NCBI GenBank assembly: GCA_019779905.1
Contig: JABAKE010000001.1
Span: 496,001-560,000, forward strand
Length of the DNA stretch: 64,000 bases
Source: Modestobacter lapidis
GTDB taxonomy: Bacteria > Actinomycetota > Actinomycetes > Mycobacteriales > Geodermatophilaceae
Direction: 5' to 3'
Part shown: positions 33,332 through 48,924 of the stretch, piece after piece
Numbering within the stretch: the stretch's first letter is position 1
How the letters are laid out: each line of letters opens with the position of its first letter
Program-made: the position numbers and the translations under genes
The notes under the pieces: model-generated
Database searches by the model: none
Seen by the model: only the letters and a program-made list of their open reading frames with translations
What the model was told of the DNA's origin: nothing

Positions 33332-34039
33332 TCATGCCGCGACGGCGGACACGAACACGCAGACGCCGTCCCGGTCATCGGCTCGTTTCCGCAGGCCGAC
33401 GACCCGCAGCAGCGCGAGCTCGACCCGGTGCGCCAGCCGGCGGACGCCGGAGTACTCCATCTCGCCGCCCCGCCGGACCTCGATGCGGTCGAACCCCGCC
33501 TGACGGACGTGCTCGGTCAGCATCCAGTCGGGCAGGATCGTGATGTGCCCCGGCTGGTAGTAGTGCCTGGGGCCGAAGAAGACCGGAGCGCCCCTCAGCA
33601 CCATCTTCAGCAGTGAGTGCGGGTGGGTGACGTTCGGGGTGCTGACCAGGAGGCGGTCGCCGGTGCGGAGCAGCGCCCGGATCGACCGCAGGACCTGCCG
33701 GGGGTTCTCCACGTGCTCCAGCGTCTCGACGCAGACGACCAGGTCGAACGGGCCGCGGGTCTCGTCGCTCCACTCGGGATGGTCCAGGTCGAGGCGGTGG
33801 ATCCACTCGTGCGGCGGGAACAGGTCGGTCGGCACCACGTCGAAGCCGGCGTCCCGGAGCCGGAGCGCCAGCGCACCGCAACCGGCGCCGACCTCCAGGA
33901 TCCGGCCGCCGTCGGGGAGCGCCGCTCGCACCAGGTCGACCGCGTACTCGTGCACGCCCGGAGCGGCGTGCACGGAGTGGCCCTGGTAGGACCGGACGCT
34001 CGCCGTCCGCTGGATGGTCTCGGGCTGTGGCCGCGTCAC
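33332..34039 (-). CDS. class I SAM-dependent methyltransferase
   Basis: A 235-residue methyltransferase. Motif I is GRILEVGAGCGALALRLRDA (about residue 46) and motif II is VVCVETLEHVENPRQ. DRLLVSTPNVTHPHS is the motif III strand. This is the UbiG-like/methyltransferase-11 pattern, often found near glycan or lipid genes. A basic C-terminal tail (VGLRKRADDRDGV) follows. The start is GTG 34039, 87 bp from and divergent to the polymerase gene start. No substrate can be assigned. Confidence 0.85.
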   Translation of the reverse strand: MTRPQPETIQRTASVRSYQGHSVHAAPGVHEYAVDLVRAALPDGGRILEVGAGCGALALRLRDAGFDVVPTDLFPPHEWIHRLDLDHPEWSDETRGPFDLVVCVETLEHVENPRQVLRSIRALLRTGDRLLVSTPNVTHPHSLLKMVLRGAPVFFGPRHYYQPGHITILPDWMLTEHVRQAGFDRIEVRRGGEMEYSGVRRLAHRVELALLRVVGLRKRADDRDGVCVFVSAVAA

Positions 34040-34126
34040 CCGTCCAGGCTCTCATCCCTGGCCCGCGTCCGCGTGGGCTGCGCGCGTGGCGGCATCGAGG
34101 TGCCGGCCATCGGCGAGACTGCACCG

Positions 34127-35863
34127 GTGAACCGGATCGTCCTCGTGCGTCGCGGCGGGAGCACGGTCGAGGCGCGCGAACGCGCCGACGACGGCCCGGG
34201 CGTCCGGGTCGCCAGGCTCCCGGCCGCCGATCTACCGGGGTTCGTGGCGGAGCGGGAACGCTCGCCGGTCCGCTGGGTGTGGGACGACACCACCCGGTGG
34301 TACCCGGCGCTGCTGGCCGCCGGCGTCCGGATCGGACGCTGCTGGGACCTGCGGCTCAGCCACGCGGTCCTCCGCCGGTCGCCGTTCGCCGATCAGGCGT
34401 TGCTCGCCGACGACCAGACCCCGGGCTGGGACGCCCTCCAGCCGGTCACCACCGCCGACCCGGCGCTGTTCCCGCTCGCCGACCCCGCCGACCGCCTCGA
34501 TCCGGCCGCCGAGCACGCGCGCCAGCAGGCGGCGCTCGCCGCGTCACCGGCACGTGCGCGGTTGGAACTGCTGCTCGCCGCGGAGTCCTCCGGCGCGCTG
34601 GTGGCCGCCGAGATGACCTCTGCCGGGCTGCCGTGGCGGGTCGACGTGCACCACCGTCTGCTGCGCGAGCTGCTGGGCCCGCGCCCGGCACCCGGCCGGC
34701 GGCCGGCGGTGCTGGCGCGACTGCTGACCGACGTCCAGGCGGCCTTCGCGGCGCCCGGGCTGAACCCCGACTCGCCGGGTGGGCTGCTGCGTGCGCTGCA
34801 GGCCGCGGGACTGCCGGTGGACGACACCCGCTCCTGGACGCTCGAGCAGCTGGAGCACCCGGGCATCCCGGCGTTGCTGGAGTACAAGAAGCTCTCGCGG
34901 CTGCTCCAGGCCAACGGCTGGAGCTGGCTGGACACCTGGGTGAGCGGTGGCCGGTTCCGCTCCACCTTCCTGCCCGGGGGCGTGGTGACCGGGCGGTGGG
35001 CCGCCAACGGCGGCGGCGCGCTGTCGGTCCCCGTCCAGGTCCGCCCCGCGGTGGTCGCCGACGACGGCTGGCGCTTCGTCGTGGCCGATGTGGCGCAGCT
35101 GGAGCCGCGGGTGCTCGCCGGCATGAGCGGCGTCGCGGCGATGGCCGAGGCGGCCCGGTCGTCCGACCTGTACCAGGGGATGGTGGCCGGCGGCGCGGTG
35201 GCGACCCGGGCAGAGGCCAAGGTCGGCATGCTCGGGGCGATGTACGGCGGTACCCGCGGCCAGAGCGGCCGGATGATGCCGCGGCTGACCCGCCGGTATC
35301 CCCGGGCGATCGGACTGGTGGAGGAGGCTGCCCGCGCGGGGGAGCGCGGCGAGGTGGTGCACACCCTGCTCGGCCGCGGGTCGCCGCCGCCCACCGGCGC
35401 GTGGGCGGATCGCCCGGTGGGGCTCGGCGAGCACCCGGACGGGGTCGGGTCGGACGGGGTCGGGTCGGACGGGGTCGGGTCGGACGGGGTCGGGTCGGAC
35501 GGGGTCGGGTCGGACGGGGCCGGGTCGAGGGAGGACCGGGCCCGCCACCGCCGCGCCTGGGGCCGGTTCACCCGCAACTTCGTCGTCCAGGGCACCGGGG
35601 CCGAATGGGCGCTGTGCTGGCTGGCCGGCCTGCGCAACCGGCTGTGGCACCTCGGCGGCGCCGGCACCCTGGATCAGCGCCCGCACCTGGTGTTCTTCCT
35701 GCACGACGAGGTGCTCGTGCACACGCCGGCGCACCTGGCCGATGCGGTCGTCGAGGAGGTCCGCAGTGCGGCGGCCGAGGCCGGCCGGCTGCTCTTCGGC
35801 GGGTTCCCCATCGACTTCCCGCTCGATGTCGCGGTGGTCGGGTCGTGGGCCGACGTGGACTGA
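34127..35863 (+). CDS. short family A DNA polymerase with degenerate exonuclease domain
   Basis: A 578-residue family A polymerase. The N-terminal 120 residues resemble a worn 3'-5' exonuclease domain (WDDTTRWYPALLAAGVRIG, WDLRLSHAVLRRS) without clear DEDD acids. Polymerase motif A is DVAQLEPRVLAGMSG (321-335). Motif B is R361-x3-K365...Y373-G374, and motif C is HDE at 526-528, so catalytic residues are intact. Between B and C, residues 438-467 are six copies of a five-residue unit (Asp-Gly-Val-Gly-Ser, the last with Ala) encoded by a perfect 15-bp repeat. The start is GTG 34127. It lacks the 5' nuclease domain of full PolA and may be a repair polymerase. Confidence 0.85.
   Translation: MNRIVLVRRGGSTVEARERADDGPGVRVARLPAADLPGFVAERERSPVRWVWDDTTRWYPALLAAGVRIGRCWDLRLSHAVLRRSPFADQALLADDQTPGWDALQPVTTADPALFPLADPADRLDPAAEHARQQAALAASPARARLELLLAAESSGALVAAEMTSAGLPWRVDVHHRLLRELLGPRPAPGRRPAVLARLLTDVQAAFAAPGLNPDSPGGLLRALQAAGLPVDDTRSWTLEQLEHPGIPALLEYKKLSRLLQANGWSWLDTWVSGGRFRSTFLPGGVVTGRWAANGGGALSVPVQVRPAVVADDGWRFVVADVAQLEPRVLAGMSGVAAMAEAARSSDLYQGMVAGGAVATRAEAKVGMLGAMYGGTRGQSGRMMPRLTRRYPRAIGLVEEAARAGERGEVVHTLLGRGSPPPTGAWADRPVGLGEHPDGVGSDGVGSDGVGSDGVGSDGVGSDGAGSREDRARHRRAWGRFTRNFVVQGTGAEWALCWLAGLRNRLWHLGGAGTLDQRPHLVFFLHDEVLVHTPAHLADAVVEEVRSAAAEAGRLLFGGFPIDFPLDVAVVGSWADVD
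35438..35527 (+). repeat. 15-bp in-frame tandem repeat (5 perfect + 1 variant copy)
   Basis: Five identical copies of GACGGGGTCGGGTCG (35438-35512) and one with a single change (GACGGGGCCGGGTCG, 35513-35527). The array lies inside the polymerase gene, keeps frame, and encodes a Gly/Ser/Asp-rich linker. Near-perfect identity of the copies indicates recent expansion, and copy number may vary between strains. Confidence 0.95.
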
Positions 35864-41243: not shown

Positions 41244-41375
41244 GGTGACGTCCTACCCGGGGCGCGAGGGTCCACGCCAGACCGCACCGGCCGGGGGGAC
41301 ACCGTGTCCCCGGGCCGCCGGTGGGTAGGCGGGAGAGGACCGATCGCGCATTCCCAGCAACCGTGGAGGCTCCCG

Positions 41376-42941
41376 ATGGCCCTGCAGTACCCGACGCAGC
41401 CCGGCGACATCGACCATCTGATCGCTGACGACCACGCCATCGTCGAGCGGCAGTTCCAGCACCTGGAGGCCGGCCGCGGCAACCGCCGCGTCCTGGTCGA
41501 CCAGATCTCCTTCGAGCTCGCGGCGCACGCGTTCGCGGAGGAGACCGTGCTCTACCCGATCTGGCCCGAGATCGGGATGACCGACGAGCACGACGACGCT
41601 GAGCACGAGCACCAGAAGATCAAGGAGCACCTCGCCGTCCTCGGGCGTACCGAGCCCGGCGAGCCCGAGTTCGAGCAGGCGCTCACCCGGCTCATGGAGG
41701 TGGTCCGCCACCACGTCCACGACGAGGAGGACGAGGAGCTGCCGGAGTTCCGGGCCAAGGCCGGTGCCGAGCGGATGGCCGATCTCGGCAGGCAGTTCCT
41801 CACCGCGAAGCGGCAGGCACCCACGCGGCCGCACCCGCACGCCCCGGACGAGGGCATCGCCGAGCGGATCGCCGGGATGCTGGCCAAGCCGCTGGACATG
41901 GTGCGCGACATGCTCTCGGGCCGGCAGCAGGAGCTGGCCACCGACGCCTCCGGCCTGCTGGACCCGCAGGCGCAGGCGATCGTCGACGCGCACTCCTCGC
42001 TCGGTCCGCTGCCGTTCGAGATCCTCACGCCCGAGCAGGCCCGCAAGCAGCCCGGCCCCGACGACGCGGTGCGGAAGGTGATGGCCGACCGCGGCATCTC
42101 CGGCCCCGAGCCGGTCGGCTCGGTGCAGGACCTGACGATTCCGGACGGCGCCGGAGGTGAGCAGGCGCTGCGCGTCTACACCCCGGCGAACGCCGGGGCC
42201 GGACCGCTGCCGATCGTCCTGTGGATCCACGGCGGCGGGTGGGTGCTGTTCGACATCGACACCTACGACGCGTCCTGCCGCGGCATCTGCAACAAGGCGC
42301 AGGCCGTCGTCGTCAGCCCCGGCTACCGGCGGGCACCGGAGGCCGTCTTCCCGGCCTCCCATGACGACGTGCTGACCGCCTGGACGTGGGTGCGGGAGAA
42401 CGCCGCGCAGCTGGGCGGGGACCCCGCCCGGATGGCCATCGGGGGTGAGTCCGTGGGCGGCACCATGGCCGCGGCCACGTCCCTGCAGCTGGCCGCCAAC
42501 GGCCGGCCGGCGCCGCTGGCACAGGTCTGCGTCTACCCGCTGACCACCGGCGAGCAGTTCGGCGAGTCGATGGAGGACGCCGCCGACGGCCGCCCGCTGA
42601 ACCGCGCGCTGCTGTCCTGGATGGCGATGCACGCCTTCGCGGGCAAGCCCGAGGCGGCGACCGACCCGCGGATCGCCCTGCTGGACTGGACCCCCGCGCA
42701 GCGGGCCGGCATGCCGCCGACGCTGGTGATCACCGACGAGCGCGACGTGCTGCGCAGCCAGGGGCAGCAGTTCGCCGCGGACCTGGAAGCCGCCGGCGTG
42801 CCGACGACGCACCGGTACTACACCGGGGTGATGCACGAGTTCTTCGGCGCCTCCGCCGTGCTGGACAAGGCCGAGGAGGCCCAGCAGGAGGCCGCGCAAC
42901 ACCTGCTGCGCGCCTTCGGCGCCCCCGGGGTGTCCCGGTGA
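41376..42941 (+). CDS. fusion of hemerythrin-like (HHE) domain and alpha/beta-hydrolase fold-3 esterase
   Basis: A 521-residue two-domain protein. Residues 1-150 are a hemerythrin HHE four-helix domain: H20 in LIADDHAIVE, H51 and E55 in ELAAHAFAEETVLYPIWPE, a His cluster at 72-85, and HHVHDEEDEELPEF at 112-125. These are the expected diiron ligands. After a Pro/His-rich linker, residues about 240-515 are an HSL-type alpha/beta hydrolase. HGGGW at 285-289 forms the oxyanion hole, S359 in GGESVGG is the nucleophile, Asp lies in VITDERDVLR and His in GVMHEFFG. GTGGAGG precedes ATG 41376. The downstream beta-propeller gene overlaps by four bases. An O2- or redox-sensing role for the HHE part is inference. 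Confidence 0.9.
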   Translation: MALQYPTQPGDIDHLIADDHAIVERQFQHLEAGRGNRRVLVDQISFELAAHAFAEETVLYPIWPEIGMTDEHDDAEHEHQKIKEHLAVLGRTEPGEPEFEQALTRLMEVVRHHVHDEEDEELPEFRAKAGAERMADLGRQFLTAKRQAPTRPHPHAPDEGIAERIAGMLAKPLDMVRDMLSGRQQELATDASGLLDPQAQAIVDAHSSLGPLPFEILTPEQARKQPGPDDAVRKVMADRGISGPEPVGSVQDLTIPDGAGGEQALRVYTPANAGAGPLPIVLWIHGGGWVLFDIDTYDASCRGICNKAQAVVVSPGYRRAPEAVFPASHDDVLTAWTWVRENAAQLGGDPARMAIGGESVGGTMAAATSLQLAANGRPAPLAQVCVYPLTTGEQFGESMEDAADGRPLNRALLSWMAMHAFAGKPEAATDPRIALLDWTPAQRAGMPPTLVITDERDVLRSQGQQFAADLEAAGVPTTHRYYTGVMHEFFGASAVLDKAEEAQQEAAQHLLRAFGAPGVSR

Positions 42942-44047
42942 CCGAGGCAGCGCAGCCCGCCGGCCACGAGACCATCGGCACGCTCGAGGTCGTCCACCTG
43001 TTCACCGGGGCGATGCCGACCGGGGTGAGCGTCTCGCACACCGGCCGGGTGTTCGTCTGCTATCCGAAGTGGGGCGACGAGGTCGGGTTCACCGTGGGAG
43101 AGGTCCGGGACGGCGACGTCGTCGCCTTCCCGAGCCAGGAGCTCAACGACAACCGCTCCGACGCCGATCCCGACCGGCTGGTGTCGGTGCAGAGCATCGT
43201 CGTCGACCCGGCGGACCGGCTCTGGCTGCTGGACACCGGCAGCCCGATGTTCCAGCCCACCCAGCACGGCGGACCGAAACTCGTCTGCGTCGACCTGGCC
43301 ACCGACTCGGTGGTCCAGACGATCCTCTTCCCGACCGACGTCGCGCTGCCCACGACCTACCTCAACGACGTCCGGTTCGACCTGCGTCGCGGGGCGGCGG
43401 GGACGGCGTTCATCACCGACTCCTCCGACTCGGGGCCGAACGGGATCATCGTGGTCGACCTGGCCTCGGGGGAGAGCTGGCGGCGGCTGCACGAGCACCC
43501 GGCCACCAAGGCCGTGCCGCCGCCGGACCTGCGGATGGTCGTGGAGGGCCAGGAGTTCATCGAGCGGGCCGACGACGGCTCGACCTCGCCGATCTGCATG
43601 GGCGCCGACGGGATAGCGATCGCCGCCGACGGCAGCCGGCTGTACTGGTGCCCGATGGCCGGCCGGCGGTGGTACAGCGTGTCGGTGGACGCGTTGGCCG
43701 ACCGGTCGACCGGCGATGACGCGGTCGTGGCCACGGTCGCCGACGAGGGCGACAAGGGCTGCGTCAGCGACGGACTGGAGACCGACGACCAGGGTCGGCT
43801 CTACGTCACCGACGGCGAGCACGACGCGATCCACCGGCGGCTGCCCGACGGGTCGTGGGAGACCGTCGTCTCCGACCCCCGGCTGCTGTGGCCCGACACC
43901 ATGTCCGTCGCGACGGACGGCCACCTCTACGTCACGGCCAACCAGCTGTACCGGCAGGCCAAGTACCGCGGGGGCGCGGACCAGCGCCGCAAGCCCTACG
44001 TGCTGTTCCGCACGCCGATCGACGCCGGGCCGGTGCAGCTGCGCTGA
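42938..44047 (+). CDS. major royal jelly/yellow-type beta-propeller protein
   Basis: A 369-residue six-bladed beta-propeller of the MRJP/yellow and gluconolactonase-like class. Diagnostic segments are MPTGVSVSHTGRVFVCYPKW, LVSVQSIVVDPADRLWLLDT, GTAFITDSSDSGPNGIIVVD, CMGADGIAIAADGSRLYWCP and LWPDTMSVATDGHLYVTANQ. Bacterial members are of unknown substrate; some are thought to be lactonases. There is no signal peptide. The GTG start lies inside the stop of the hemerythrin-esterase gene (GTGA), so the two proteins are made together and may act on the same ester or lactone. It ends at a perfect 18-bp hairpin terminator. Confidence 0.86.
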   Translation: MTEAAQPAGHETIGTLEVVHLFTGAMPTGVSVSHTGRVFVCYPKWGDEVGFTVGEVRDGDVVAFPSQELNDNRSDADPDRLVSVQSIVVDPADRLWLLDTGSPMFQPTQHGGPKLVCVDLATDSVVQTILFPTDVALPTTYLNDVRFDLRRGAAGTAFITDSSDSGPNGIIVVDLASGESWRRLHEHPATKAVPPPDLRMVVEGQEFIERADDGSTSPICMGADGIAIAADGSRLYWCPMAGRRWYSVSVDALADRSTGDDAVVATVADEGDKGCVSDGLETDDQGRLYVTDGEHDAIHRRLPDGSWETVVSDPRLLWPDTMSVATDGHLYVTANQLYRQAKYRGGADQRRKPYVLFRTPIDAGPVQLR

Positions 44048-44120: not shown

Positions 44121-45332
44121 TCAGGACGGCGCGATGACCGCCTTGGTCCAGCCGCTCTCCCGTCGGTCGAACGTCTCGTAGGCATCCAGCACCGTGGGCA
44201 TGTCCTCCACCTGGGTGAGCACGGTGGAGGGGTCGATCGCGCCGGTGCGTACCAGGTCGAGCAGGCGGGGCAGGTACCGCCGGTGGTTGCAGTTGCCCAT
44301 CTTCACGCTGAGGTTCTTGTTCATCGCCGCACCGGTCGGGAAGCTCGTCAGCTGCGGGGGGTAGACGCCGATGACGCCGATGCTCCCGGCCTTGGCGACC
44401 ATCTCCACCGCCCACTGCAGCGCCTGGCTCGGCGCGTCGCCGGCGACGTAGGTACCGCCGTGCGGGTTCTGGTCCGGGGCGACCTGGGACCGCTCCTGCT
44501 CGAACGCCGCCGCCTGTTGCTGCGCAGCCTCGGCCGCCGGGCCGGACTTCGGCCGCTGGGCGTCGACACCGACCGCCTCGACGACCCGGTCGACGCCGAT
44601 CCCACCGGTCAGTTCCTTGACCACCGCGACCGGGTCCTCGGTGTTGAAGTCGATCGCCTCGGCCCCGCGTGCCCTGGCCTGGTCCAGGCGGCTGGCCACC
44701 CCGTCGATGATCAGCACCCGGCCGGCGCCCTGCTGGAAGGCGCTGGTGACGGCGAACTGGCCGACCGGCCCGGCACCCAGGACCAGCACCGTGTCGCCCT
44801 GGCCGACGTCGGCCAGCCGGCAGCCGAACCAGGCGGTCGGGTAGATGTCCGACAGCAGGATCGCCGCGTCATCGCTGACCTCGTCGGGCAGCCAGACCGG
44901 CCCGACGTTCGCGAACGGCACCCGGGCGAAGTCTGCCTGCAGTCCGTCGACCGGTCCGGTGGTCTGCGGCCCGCCGAAGAAACACGTCCCGGCGGCTGCG
45001 CCGTTGGGGTTGGCGTTGTCGCACTGCGCGAAGTAGCCGGCCCGGCAGTAGGAGCAATAGCCGCAGCCGATGGTCGATGGGATCACCACGCGATCGCCGG
45101 AGCGCAGGTTGCGCACCCCCGGACCGGTCTCGCGGACGATGCCGACGGCCTCGTGACCGAGGATCGTGCCCTCGACCATCCCGGACATGGTGCCCCGCAC
45201 GAAGTGCAGGTCGGTTCCGCAGATGGCGCTCGCGGTGATCTCCACGATGGCGTCGGTCGGGTCCTGGATGGTCGGGTCGGGAACGTCGTCCAGTCGGATG
45301 TCTCCGACGCCGTGCCATACCACTGCCTTCAC
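44121..45332 (-). CDS. zinc-dependent dehydrogenase, glutathione-independent formaldehyde dehydrogenase-like
   Basis: A 403-residue medium-chain dehydrogenase. Catalytic zinc ligands lie in SAICGTDLHFVRGTM and ILGHEAVG. The four-cysteine structural zinc loop is CGYCSYCRAGYFAQC. CDNANPNGAAAGTCFFGGPQ and FANVGPVWLPDEVSDDAAIL are typical of the branch including Pseudomonas formaldehyde dehydrogenase. The Rossmann turn is VLGAGPVGQFAV. An insertion near residues 260-310 is characteristic of this subfamily. The start is GTG 45332. A small helical-protein gene lies 85 bp upstream on the same strand. Formaldehyde or another short aldehyde is possible, and the substrate is not certain. Confidence 0.9.
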   Translation of the reverse strand: MKAVVWHGVGDIRLDDVPDPTIQDPTDAIVEITASAICGTDLHFVRGTMSGMVEGTILGHEAVGIVRETGPGVRNLRSGDRVVIPSTIGCGYCSYCRAGYFAQCDNANPNGAAAGTCFFGGPQTTGPVDGLQADFARVPFANVGPVWLPDEVSDDAAILLSDIYPTAWFGCRLADVGQGDTVLVLGAGPVGQFAVTSAFQQGAGRVLIIDGVASRLDQARARGAEAIDFNTEDPVAVVKELTGGIGVDRVVEAVGVDAQRPKSGPAAEAAQQQAAAFEQERSQVAPDQNPHGGTYVAGDAPSQALQWAVEMVAKAGSIGVIGVYPPQLTSFPTGAAMNKNLSVKMGNCNHRRYLPRLLDLVRTGAIDPSTVLTQVEDMPTVLDAYETFDRRESGWTKAVIAPS

Positions 45333-45417: not shown

Positions 45418-45660
45418 TCATTGGGCGGCGGGGCCGGCCTGGTCGGTGCCGGACAGCTTGGCGAGGAACTGGTGGCAGCGGGCAGCTCGTTGCGAGTCGC
45501 CGTCCATGACCTCGCGGAAGAAGCCGGCCACGTCGTCCAGGCCGGCGTTCTCCGCGTCGCGCACGTACTGGCCGTAGTCGTGCCCGGCCTTGAGCGAGTG
45601 GTACTGGACCGAGATCAGGTCGAACATGACGTCCTCGAAGCCGGTTTCGCCGGTGGCCAT
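45418..45660 (-). CDS. small helical protein beside the dehydrogenase, unknown function
   Basis: An 80-residue protein from ATG 45660, with an excellent AGGAGA ribosome site that rejects the longer upstream frame. MATGETGFEDVMFDLISVQY and HSLKAGHDYGQYVRDAENAG are two amphipathic helices, followed by a third around FFREVMDGDSQRAARCHQFL, which looks like a reduced ferritin-like bundle. Metal ligands are not evident beyond several Asp, Glu and His residues. It is on the same strand as the dehydrogenase, 85 bp upstream. I do not recognise a characterised family. Confidence 0.75.
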   Translation of the reverse strand: MATGETGFEDVMFDLISVQYHSLKAGHDYGQYVRDAENAGLDDVAGFFREVMDGDSQRAARCHQFLAKLSGTDQAGPAAQ

Positions 45661-45758
45661 GGTCTTCTCCTTGAGCGTCAGGGTTGTGACCCTCGGCTCC
45701 TGCCCGGGTAGCTGCCGGGTCACACCAGGGATCTCGATGTGTCGGTGGACCCGGGATC

Positions 45759-46267: not shown

Positions 46268-46957
46268 ATGTCACCTGACCAGAAGCCGTTCGCGGATCGG
46301 CGGGAGGCCGGCCGGGTCCTCGCGGACCGGTTGTCGGACTACGCGCACCACGACGTCGTCGTGCTGGGGCTCCCGCGCGGAGGAGTGCCGGTCGCCGCGG
46401 AGGTCGCAGCTGCGACCGGCGGGGCGCTCGACGTCCTCATCGTCCGCAAGCTCGGTCTGCCCGGACAGCCGGAGCTGGCCATGGGTGCGATCGCGGCCGT
46501 CGGCGACGCGGTGGAAACCGTCCGCAACCAGTCGGTGATCGAGGCCGGTGGCGTGGACGAGAGCGCCTTCGAGGCCGTTCGGCAGCGCGAGTCGGACGAG
46601 CTGCGCCGGCGCACTGAGGCCTATCGCGGCGGGCGGGCGGCCACCCCGGTCCACGGCCGGGCGGTGATCGTCGTCGATGACGGGCTGGCCACCGGGTCGA
46701 CGATGCGGGCCGCGCTCGCCGCGGTGCGCAAGCAGCAGCCCCGACGGCTCACCGTGGCGGTTCCGGTGGCCTCGGGAGCCGTGTGCGACCGGCTCGCGGC
46801 CGAGGTGGACGAGGTGGTCTGCGTGTGGACGCCGGAGTTCTTCTCCGCGGTGGGCCAGGGGTACACGGACTTCTCCCCGACGCAGGACGACGAGGTCCGG
46901 GCCGCGTTGGCAGCGGCTGCCGGCAGCACCGGGGAAGAGGGCAGGGCGGATGTCTGA
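46268..46957 (+). CDS. phosphoribosyltransferase-domain protein
   Basis: A 229-residue type I phosphoribosyltransferase-like protein. The PRPP-binding loop is AVIVVDDGLATGSTMRAAL (about residues 134-152). HDVVVLGLPRGGVPVAAEVA and DVLIVRKLGLPGQPELAMGA are the diphosphate-binding turn and the conserved family segment. GAGGAGGGG precedes ATG 46268. In many actinobacteria this domain stands beside, or is fused to, a dienelactone-hydrolase domain; here the hydrolase is two genes downstream. The erythromycin-esterase gene overlaps its end by eight bases. The natural base substrate is unknown. Confidence 0.88.
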   Translation: MSPDQKPFADRREAGRVLADRLSDYAHHDVVVLGLPRGGVPVAAEVAAATGGALDVLIVRKLGLPGQPELAMGAIAAVGDAVETVRNQSVIEAGGVDESAFEAVRQRESDELRRRTEAYRGGRAATPVHGRAVIVVDDGLATGSTMRAALAAVRKQQPRRLTVAVPVASGAVCDRLAAEVDEVVCVWTPEFFSAVGQGYTDFSPTQDDEVRAALAAAAGSTGEEGRADV

Positions 46958-48245
46958 TGACGACGGACGGGTGCAGGACATGGCCCGGCCCCTGCGTGAT
47001 GCCGACGACCTGGATCCGTTGCTGGACCGGATCGGCGAGGCGCGGGTGGTGCTGCTCGGAGAGGCCTCGCACGGCACGCACGAGTACTACGCGTGGCGGG
47101 CGGCGCTCACCCGCCGGCTGATCACCGAGCGGGGTTTCTCGTTCGTCGGGGTGGAGGGCGACTGGCCCGACTGTCACCGGGTCAACTGCTCGGTGACCCT
47201 GGCCTCGGCGGCCGAGGACCCGCGGGAGGTGCTGCGCGGCTACGAGCGCTGGCCGACGTGGATGTGGGCCAACGAGGAGGTCGCGGAGTTCACCCGCTGG
47301 CTGCGGGCGCACAACGCCGAACGCCCGCCGGCCGACCGGGTGGGCTTCTTCGGCCTGGACGTCTACAGCCTCTGGGACTCCCTGCGGGCGATCCTCGGAT
47401 ACCTGCGCGAGCACGAGCCCGCGCACGTCGACACCGCGTTGGCCGCGTTCCGGTGCTTCGAGCCCTACGCGGAGGACCCGCAGGCCTATGCCCGGGCGAC
47501 CCGGCTGGTGCCGACCAGCTGCGAGGACACCGTGGTCGGCATGCTCGGCGAGCTCCGCGCCGGCGCGGCGACCGATGGTGGGCCGGACCGGGACGCCGCG
47601 TTCAACGCCGAGCAGAACGCCCGGGTCGCCGCCGGCGCCGAGGCCTACTACCGGGCGATGGTCCGCGGCGGGCCCGACTCGTGGAACGTCCGCGACCACC
47701 ACATGGTCGACACGCTCGACCATCTTCTGAACCACCACGGGCTGGGTGCCAAGGCGGTCGTCTGGGAGCACAACACCCATGTCGGGGACGCCCGGTACAC
47801 CGACATGGGCGAGGCGGGCATGGTCAACGTCGGTCAGCTGGCCCGCGAGCGCTACGGCGAGGACGAGGTCGTGATCGTCGGGTTCGGCAGCCACCACGGC
47901 AGCGTCCTGGCCGCGGACAGCTGGGGTGCCCCCGTGCAGCAGATGCCGCTGCCTCCGGCCCGCCGGGGGAGCACGGAGGCACTGCTGCACGACGCGGTGG
48001 CCGAGGCGAGCGCGCTGTTCGTCTTCCCTCGGGAGCAGCCTCGGTGGCTGGCCGAGGAGCGCCCGCACCGCGCCGTCGGCGTCGTCTACCACCCCGGCGC
48101 CGAGCGCTGGGGCAACTACGTGCCCACGGTCCTGGGCCGCCGGTACGACGCCTTCTGCTGGTTCGACGAGTCCCGGGCGCTGACCCCGCTGCACGACGTC
48201 CACCCCTCCGGAGCGGAGCTGGAGACCTTTCCCGATGCCGATTGA
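46950..48245 (+). CDS. erythromycin-esterase-family protein
   Basis: A 431-residue EreA/B-superfamily hydrolase. The family's start pattern is VVLLGEASHGTHEYYAWRAA, whose His and Glu are catalytic. FSFVGVEGDWPDCHRVN holds a Glu that binds the substrate. VVWEHNTHVGDARYTDMGEA and VIVGFGSHHGSVLAA contribute later active-site His residues. Family members include macrolide esterases, but most chromosomal ones have unknown substrates. ATG 46950 lies in the end of the phosphoribosyltransferase gene (8-bp overlap), and its 3' end overlaps the hydrolase gene by 11 bp, so the three are translated as a block. Drug resistance should not be assumed. Confidence 0.87.
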   Translation: MSDDDGRVQDMARPLRDADDLDPLLDRIGEARVVLLGEASHGTHEYYAWRAALTRRLITERGFSFVGVEGDWPDCHRVNCSVTLASAAEDPREVLRGYERWPTWMWANEEVAEFTRWLRAHNAERPPADRVGFFGLDVYSLWDSLRAILGYLREHEPAHVDTALAAFRCFEPYAEDPQAYARATRLVPTSCEDTVVGMLGELRAGAATDGGPDRDAAFNAEQNARVAAGAEAYYRAMVRGGPDSWNVRDHHMVDTLDHLLNHHGLGAKAVVWEHNTHVGDARYTDMGEAGMVNVGQLARERYGEDEVVIVGFGSHHGSVLAADSWGAPVQQMPLPPARRGSTEALLHDAVAEASALFVFPREQPRWLAEERPHRAVGVVYHPGAERWGNYVPTVLGRRYDAFCWFDESRALTPLHDVHPSGAELETFPDAD

Positions 48246-48924
48246 GCAGCAGCCGCTGCAGCGCACCGTCGAGGTGCCCGCGTCCGGGGCGGAGCTCGCC
48301 GGCGATCTCGTCGTCCCGGCCGGGGCCCGCGGCGTGGTGCTGTTCGCCCACGGCAGCGGCAGCAGCCGGCACAGCCCCCGCAACCGGCAGGTCGCCGCCG
48401 CCCTCCAGGGCGCCGGCTTCGGCACGCTGCTGATGGACCTGCTGACCGAGGCCGAGGAGGAGGTCGACGCCGGCACCCGGGAACTGCGCTTCGACATCCC
48501 GCTGCTGGCCGGGCGGCTCACCGACGCCGCCGACTGGCTCGACGCTGCAGACGGGACCGCCGGCCTGCCACTGGCGACGTTCGGTGCCAGCACCGGTGCA
48601 GCCGCCGCGCTCATCACCGCCGCCGACCGGCCGGGCCGGGTCCGCGCGGTCATCTCCCGCGGCGGGCGGCCCGACCTCGCCGGGGAGGCGCTGGGTCGTG
48701 TGCAGGCACCGGCGCTGCTCATCGTCGGCGGCGCCGACCAGCAGGTGCTGGAACTGAACCGGACCGCCGCCGTCCAACTGGCGGGGGAGAACGACGTCGC
48801 CGTGGTGCCCGGCGCGACCCACCTCTTTCCGGAGCCCGGAGCACTGGAGGAGGTCATCGACCGGTCGATCGACTGGCTGCACCGATGGCTGCCGCTCCCA
48901 CCGGCAGCCGTGGCCGCCCGCTGA
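48235..48924 (+). CDS. dienelactone-hydrolase-like alpha/beta hydrolase
   Basis: A 229-residue alpha/beta hydrolase. GVVLFAHGSGSSRHSPRNRQ contains the oxyanion loop. LATFGASTGAAAALI gives the nucleophile Ser in G-x-S-x-G, LLIVGGADQQVL the acid region, and VVPGATHLFPEPGA the catalytic His. The pattern matches the hydrolase half of the phosphoribosyltransferase-hydrolase fusions. ATG 48235 overlaps the upstream esterase gene by 11 bp. A short hairpin about 24 bp after its stop probably ends the trio. Substrate unknown. Confidence 0.86.
   Translation: MPIEQQPLQRTVEVPASGAELAGDLVVPAGARGVVLFAHGSGSSRHSPRNRQVAAALQGAGFGTLLMDLLTEAEEEVDAGTRELRFDIPLLAGRLTDAADWLDAADGTAGLPLATFGASTGAAAALITAADRPGRVRAVISRGGRPDLAGEALGRVQAPALLIVGGADQQVLELNRTAAVQLAGENDVAVVPGATHLFPEPGALEEVIDRSIDWLHRWLPLPPAAVAAR

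Follow-up and report, generated by a model that had tools for sequence, protein, structure and literature searches.

A conserved, probably stress-induced fusion of a hemerythrin-type domain with an HSL-type esterase in Actinomycetota

The DNA analysed here, a stretch of 64,000 nucleotides from Modestobacter lapidis (the window), encodes one polypeptide in which two complete domains are joined, a hemerythrin-type (HHE) domain with its ligand-pattern residues and an HSL/family IV-type esterase with its catalytic residues. The join is conserved in other genomes, the trees of both halves place the fusions together on one side of a branch, promoter-like sites are enriched upstream of them, and the order of the neighbouring genes recurs. 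These proteins constitute a real, conserved fusion family that is probably induced under stress. The features of the locus are as follows.

41304..41327, forward strand: SigB/SigF-like site GTGT-N15-GGGTA, 48 nt before the ATG of the fusion gene
41376..42941, forward strand: hemerythrin (HHE)-HSL esterase fusion gene, 521 aa (frame, Pfam and AlphaFold2)
41409..41816, forward strand: HHE helical domain, residues 12-147 (Pfam PF01814, model helices and 6q09 fold)
41817..41954, forward strand: conserved HHE tail, residues 148-193, with the APTRPHP motif and helix 161-181 (comparison with single HHE proteins)
41955..42938, forward strand: complete HSL/family IV-type esterase, residues 194-521 (Pfam PF07859 and Est8 4ypv)
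42938..44047, forward strand: MRJP (major royal jelly/yellow family) gene (Pfam PF03022, E 4.2e-36)
44121..45332, reverse strand: zinc-type alcohol dehydrogenase (ADH), akin to glutathione-independent formaldehyde dehydrogenase

The frame 41376-42941 is open throughout, with an ATG and a stop codon at its ends and a product of 521 aa. Pfam places Hemerythrin (PF01814) at residues 12-123, with an E-value of 8.2e-08 and 33.2 bits, above the gathering cut-off of 25.3, and Abhydrolase_3 (PF07859) at residues 281-490 (E 5.9e-58). The HHE half carries the putative diiron ligand pattern H20, H51xxxE55, H79, H113xxxE117, while the esterase half carries the motifs HGGG (285-288), GESVG (357-361, including S359), D457 and H487, bearing out the first-pass annotation, which had read a complete putative diiron ligand set and a complete HSL-type esterase in one chain. 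In the AlphaFold2 model of the full fusion (pLDDT 90.6, pTM 0.90), the HHE half forms helices 12-31, 37-59, 69-91, 97-129 and 131-147, the six ligand-pattern residues being located on the first four, and a fixed docking of this half on the esterase is predicted by the model only. Because the whole-protein fold lists shown were filled entirely by esterases, the HHE half was folded separately (pLDDT 85.4). Its nearest solved fold is 6q09, the structure of a Rv2633c homologue with bound iron (TM 0.72 by target at E 0.023, with a Foldseek probability of 1.00), which is also its nearest solved relative by sequence (profile, E 1e-07). This fold search retrieved only 6q09 below E 0.1, with FBXL5 chains appearing at E 1.3 and above.

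The PTRPHP stretch between the two domains had been described as a Pro/His-rich linker, a description that must be abandoned, because single-domain HHE proteins end in the same conserved tail. P149 and P154 are found in 21/21 single HHE proteins and H153 in 19/21, and a new linker at approximately 148-193 is ruled out by this common tail. Ten of the 21 single HHE frames end at the fusion-equivalent positions 188-196 and nine extend to about 228, the remaining two ending at 167 and 207; in eight or more single esterases, the match at about residue 195 is preceded by no more than eight open codons. The fusion therefore resembles two complete proteins placed one after the other.

In one scan of species genomes, the best 80 of 173 related stretches represent 79 distinct loci, and full-length matches to the fusion are found among them in at least 45 loci (L034-L078), of which two (L075 and L078) have a disrupted frame. 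The named genera are Blastococcus, Modestobacter, Geodermatophilus, Nocardioides, Kineococcus, Paractinoplanes, Promicromonospora, Streptomyces, Kocuria, Pseudonocardia, Sporichthya and Micromonospora, together with unclassified Actinomycetota. The phylogenetic spread, proposed earlier as a check, thus reveals a family kept in at least 45 named loci and twelve named genera. Full-length matches are present in 10/59 of the relatives searched, in 7/23 genomes of the genus, in 27/112 genomes and 5/12 genera of the family, and, with three candidates scored per genome, in 1/396 genomes of the phylum sample, this one being the window's own. The fusion is therefore patchy and rare outside its home family. 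Mis-joined frames or chance can be excluded because the full-length protein recurs at 60-87% identity in many genomes (46% in one, G046); the full-length join in the 45 named loci, the purifying selection described below and the confidence of the model also speak against them. Regarding plasmids, none of 1063 matching PLSDB records spans 80% of the query. A remnant of the fusion is seen in a genome of the same genus (L015, G003:C153:2410-2697 and 2732-2935), where residues 2-97 are followed about 35 nt on by residues 451-518, the middle being absent. Two fusion copies per genome occur in Pseudonocardia nigra (L067/L068), Paractinoplanes pyxinae (L056/L078, one of them disrupted), G023 and G459.

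Residue counts and trees are based on 48 distinct intact fusions from 55 extracted loci (L001, L005-L013 and L034-L078), after leaving out the disrupted L075 and L078 and the loci whose protein is identical to another row (L034, L035, L039, L055 and L064); the remnant L015 was never in the sample. Repeat fusion loci (L113-L121 and L141) were left out of both trees and ten single loci (L004, L104, L106, L108-L112, L146 and L159) out of the esterase tree. In the reconstruction of the HHE half (48 fusions and 21 singles, 69 sequences), a branch with support 99/98, recovered in 100% of 200 bootstrap trees, separates the fusions from the singles. Similarly, in the quick tree of the esterase half (48 fusions and 63 singles, 111 sequences), the branch that sets the fusions apart has SH-aLRT 99. 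These topologies are consistent with one fusion event, although several events from near-identical partners are also possible. Judging from dN/dS in 15 pairs, which ranges over 0.095-0.412 in the HHE half and 0.075-0.238 in the esterase half, both halves are under purifying selection.

The esterase half shows the features of the HSL/family IV, namely an alpha/beta-hydrolase fold and, in 48/48 fusions, HGGG, GxSxG (in the form GES-x-G), Asp (D457) and His (H487). Est8 (4ypv) shares these motifs and the fold, with Z 43.6 and rmsd 2.1 over 311 residues at 37% identity, and aligns to the esterase half only. The fusions display GES where 57/62 single esterases have GDS, and the match to the LipP1 family (NCBIfam NF058653) reaches 251.5 bits, under the cut-off of 350. 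In PLSDB, the single-domain proteins that match best, at about 43-45% identity, are proteobacterial plasmid esterases (L161-L168), which likewise align to the esterase half only. In a quick tree of 18 of the 48 fusions, these eight esterases and the first 38 singles longer than 270 aa, L161-L168 branch as sister to the fusions' esterase with SH-aLRT 96; the fusions' own branch has 85 there, and the long-branched single L082 is the next to join. E358, P380 and G491 are common to the fusions and 8/8 sister esterases, and Q225, P226 and L435 to 7/8, so that none of these six residues is specific to the fusions. In contrast, T391 and R456 of the fusions are found in 0/8.

A signal-like hydrophobic N-terminus is present in 7/8 sister esterases (best 15-residue Kyte-Doolittle mean of at least 1.73; 1.23 in the eighth), and the corresponding best mean in 51 fusions is at most 0.89. 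Searches for an HHE partner near the sister esterases in 10 plasmid records found HHE-half matches only in Variovorax (W05), far from the esterase. Among the eight sister loci read, YbhB, DUF4142 and LigD genes are neighbours at L162 (together with Ku) and L167, catalase and ADH genes at L163 and L166, and an ADH gene without the others at L165, while none of these neighbours is found at L161, L164 and L168. The surroundings of the esterase in L162 and L167, which are Agrobacterium and Sphingomonas plasmids, resemble a stress or DNA-repair island.

Turning to the HHE half, all six ligand residues are conserved in 45/48 fusions, despite divergence to about 61% identity (alignment A1). The loss of half of the diiron ligands, which the first-pass annotation had named as grounds for refutation, is thus not the state of the family. 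Three members differ: at the six ligand columns L013 reads F-L-L-Q-H-V, and L065 and L066 read F-H-V-N-Q-S, leaving one ligand residue in each, with all esterase residues kept. Because these two ligand-poor lineages are apart in both trees, at least two losses have to be assumed on these trees. The HHE half of the L065/L066 pair has a dN/dS of 0.127, within the 0.095-0.412 of the other 14 pairs. It is thus still constrained without five of the ligands, which favours a scaffold role, and iron is probably dispensable, since the three ligand-poor members keep all esterase residues. In single HHE proteins, the same six residues are found in 12/21 and H113D in 9/21.

The nature of this ligand set bears on the idea, put forward in the first-pass annotation, that the hemerythrin domain senses O2. 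The signature of O2-binding hemerythrins is H-HxxxE-HxxxH-HxxxxD (PMC9388753, text seen in part). The fusion pattern, H20-H51xxxE55-H79xxxK83-H113xxxE117, departs from it in that K83 takes the position of the fifth His in 48/48 fusions and the pattern closes with H113xxxE117. The classical signature therefore lends no support to O2 sensing, as the ligand set is RIC/YtfE-like and not the five-His set that binds O2. The ligands of YtfE are H84, H129/E133, H160 and H204/E208 (PMC9268430, in part), and this order of H, HxxxE, H, HxxxE is found in 45/48 fusions, a likeness that concerns residues only. In contrast, RIC/YtfE proteins have an N-terminal ScdA_N domain, with a DfCCgG motif in most bacterial RICs, and the fusion has neither: its HHE domain starts at residue 12, ScdA_N gives no Pfam match and no DfCCgG-type motif is found in the sequence.

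The closest proteins in both sequence and fold are the mycobacterial hemerythrin-like proteins (HLPs; Rv2633c homologue, 6q09), which are actinobacterial and diiron but, unlike the fusion, single-domain and not joined to an enzyme. The M. kansasii HLP is reported to be a NO peroxidase with weak catalase activity, and its ligands are four His, two Glu and one Tyr, a set reportedly absent from HLPs outside mycobacteria (PMC8913304, in part). In the fusions, Y60, five residues past E55, is invariant in 44 rows of A1, but a Tyr is also found there in 12/21 single HHE proteins. By analogy, given the YtfE-type ligand pattern and the reported activities of the M. kansasii HLP, peroxide or NO chemistry would be a better guess than O2 carriage. 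Five non-ligand residues (E31, Q43, K83, P94 and E100) are invariant in the 48 fusions and are found in at most a quarter of the 21 single HHE proteins. The match to the PA2171-type ribosome-binding persister protein (NF053874) has 47.2 bits, under the cut-off of 190. Hemerythrin encapsulin cargos are known in Actinobacteria (PMC8346489, in part).

Upstream of the fusion, the pattern GKKT-N14-16-GGGTA within 200 nt of the start is found only for the fusion gene among the 54 called genes of the window, which is not an independent test case because its site was noticed before the test was designed. The initial promoter scoring used GTTT with up to one mismatch. With the pattern GNNT-N14-16-GGGTA up to 200 nt upstream, sites precede 30/45 fusions vs 45/356 other genes of the same loci, and the reversed pattern precedes 1/45 and 1/356, respectively. 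This sample comprises the window and 44 of the 45 named loci, all but L046, which lacks upstream DNA, and it contains disrupted and repeated copies; leaving out L064, L075 and L078 gives 29/42. The p-value of the enrichment, about 3e-14, is too small because the rows are related, and, as the fusion loci are related and the controls come from other taxa, the counts are not independent. Among the 45 sites of other genes, 12 precede members of the ADH cluster. By taxon, the site is found in 20/21 Geodermatophilaceae and 10/24 elsewhere, with 0/3 in the Streptomyces loci, and the exact GTGT-N15-GGGTA in 13/21 Geodermatophilaceae vs 1/24 in other taxa. GGGTAY, the form of Streptomyces SigB, shows hardly any contrast: sites followed by a pyrimidine precede 4/45 fusions vs 14/356 other genes.

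In the 4.78 Mb genome, there are 10 exact GTGT-N15-GGGTA sites, against 4 for the reversed control. One precedes a gene similar to CsbD, a general stress family, and further sites precede genes of the DUF2243 and baeRF family 2 types as well as those for an epimerase, an ATP-grasp protein and an AI-2E-type transporter, so that several of the 10 (epimerase, ATP-grasp and AI-2E-type transporter) precede genes without an evident stress role. In L176, from the same genome, two divergent GTGT-N15-GGGTA sites, at 1843 (reverse strand) and 1849 (forward strand), lie in the interval separating a release-factor-like gene of baeRF family 2 from a 112-aa gene. The genome encodes a SigB/F/G sigma factor (294.9 bits vs the curated cut-off of 234.35). 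A GKKT-type site is found in 1/21 single HHE genes, within 300 nt before the matched region. In M. smegmatis, GTTG/GTTT-N15-GGGTA sites are listed for genes with reduced expression in a sigF mutant, a Mn-catalase gene and two HHE genes among them (PMC4694148, in part). Together, the consensus-like site makes the fusion a possible member of a SigB/SigF regulon, with a candidate promoter.

Downstream, the start of the MRJP gene overlaps the fusion stop by 4 nt in the window. Besides the window, 15/45 named loci have an MRJP gene immediately 3' of the fusion in the same orientation, 11 of them with the same 4-nt overlap, and MRJP homologues occur in the flanks (up to 5 kb) of 16/45 fusion loci vs 0/34 esterase-only loci (tblastn). 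The dehydrogenase at 44121..45332 reaches 151.4 bits in the NCBIfam formaldehyde dehydrogenase family, under the cut-off of 636.95. Its loose, single-linkage ADH cluster is found in 20/46 loci, window counted, and an ADH gene is directly 3' of the fusion in 8/45 (L056, L063, L064, L065, L066, L070, L072 and L078), a count in which L063 and L064 carry an identical protein and L078 is a disrupted copy. Two ADH types (at least 50% identity) are near 10/45 and 13/45 fusion loci vs 0/34 esterase-only loci (tblastn). This contrast in gene neighbours may partly reflect shared ancestry, as the control loci come from other taxa. MRJP relatives (68-69%) are also found near ADH genes on plasmids of Deinococcus aetherius (L169), where a glutathione-independent formaldehyde dehydrogenase adjoins the MRJP gene, and of Scytonema (L170), so that MRJP, zinc-type ADH and SRPBCC/cyclase genes recur jointly on plasmids across phyla. 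Further along the window, 45418-45723 (reverse strand) encodes a 101-aa protein without a Pfam match; its relatives lie near 3/45 other fusion loci (L051, L072 and L075), two of the three with a SigB/F-like site upstream.

Among the matches listed in the open-access literature, judged by titles and the starts of abstracts and with subscription papers and InterPro outside the scope, no hemerythrin-hydrolase fusion is described, in line with the first-pass annotation, which had no example to cite. To our knowledge, there is no described protein in which a hemerythrin-type domain controls an ordinary ester hydrolase. Fifty-six architectures of O2-binding hemerythrins have been reported, and no esterase is named among them in the section text of PMC4919030 that was available. 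Similarly, the word hemerythrin has no occurrence in the available part of a classification of alpha/beta hydrolases (PMC11878206).

Taking these data together, our preferred reading, in which we have about even confidence, is that the fusion is a cytosolic stress-induced carboxylesterase with a docked HHE half, under SigB/SigF-type control and with a RIC/HLP-type diiron site in most members. A complete single-domain HHE protein would have come to stand in place of the signal-like hydrophobic N-terminus of the nearest single esterases, and we infer a cytosolic location for the product. A SigB/SigF-type sigma factor would switch the fusion on in general stress, along with the yellow/MRJP-like protein and the ADH. 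The HSL domain would then cleave a substrate that we infer to be a small ester, with Ser359-His487-Asp457 acting in the usual way, and the HHE half, docked in a fixed position, could stabilise or tune the esterase. The putative iron of the RIC/HLP-type site in most members would most likely react with peroxide or NO rather than carry O2.

Three other readings account for part of the same observations. The HHE half could be an O2 or redox sensor whose diiron state switches the esterase by moving its cap. Known hemerythrin-domain sensors (DcrH, Bhr-DGC, Bhr-HD-GYP and the P1B-5 ATPase) are built in the same way, a hemerythrin-type domain being joined to an effector, although their effectors are chemoreceptor, c-di-GMP and ATPase domains (PMC9388753, in part) and that of the fusion is an esterase. 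The conserved ligand residues and the fixed relative orientation suggested by the pTM of 0.90 would agree with such a switch. Nevertheless, the O2-binding signature given for these sensors in the accessible text of the same paper is absent from the fusion, where K83 replaces the fifth His throughout, and two lineages have lost five of the six ligand residues with the esterase intact, making a sensor unlikely. The constrained HHE half of L065/L066 and the fusion-invariant residues E31, Q43, K83, P94 and E100, rare in single HHE proteins, agree instead with a stabilising or partner-binding helical scaffold in which iron is secondary. A pure scaffold would not need the six ligands that 45/48 fusions keep to about 61% identity, and we regard this role as rather improbable for the family.

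Finally, the two halves could be independent stress activities, peroxide/NO removal and ester hydrolysis, made in equal amounts without any coupling. Each half matches a complete stand-alone protein, and the nearest fold to the HHE half, the M. kansasii HLP, is reported to have NO peroxidase and weak catalase activity (PMC8913304, in part). However, the join is kept in one clade across twelve named genera, which suggests more than co-production, as does the confident fixed orientation in the model, and this reading also seems rather improbable to us. Beyond the preferred reading of a docked, stress-induced esterase, a more speculative proposal, which we consider quite improbable as a whole, is that the family represents a new class of hemerythrin effector, where a RIC/HLP-type bundle on an HSL esterase makes a peroxide- or NO-gated general-stress hydrolase; it would have arisen once, through replacement of the N-terminal export region in a GES-type esterase by a complete single-domain HHE protein, and two lineages, left with an ungated enzyme, would later have lost the gate.

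Coupling of the halves would place an ordinary ester hydrolase under the control of a hemerythrin-type domain, and a single soluble protein of 521 aa would then allow the diiron state and the output of the enzyme to be followed side by side; L013, L065 and L066, with one ligand residue left, are ready-made natural controls for it. If the halves are uncoupled, the fusion still marks a likely stress-regulon gene set composed of the fusion esterase, MRJP and ADH.

Elsewhere in the window, phosphoribosyltransferase, erythromycin-esterase-family and Hydrolase_4 genes overlap head to tail at 46268-48924, possibly forming another stress operon. The called start of the gene at 33779-35863 (forward strand) is probably too early, as the DNA_pol_A domain (Pfam) covers only residues 350-670.
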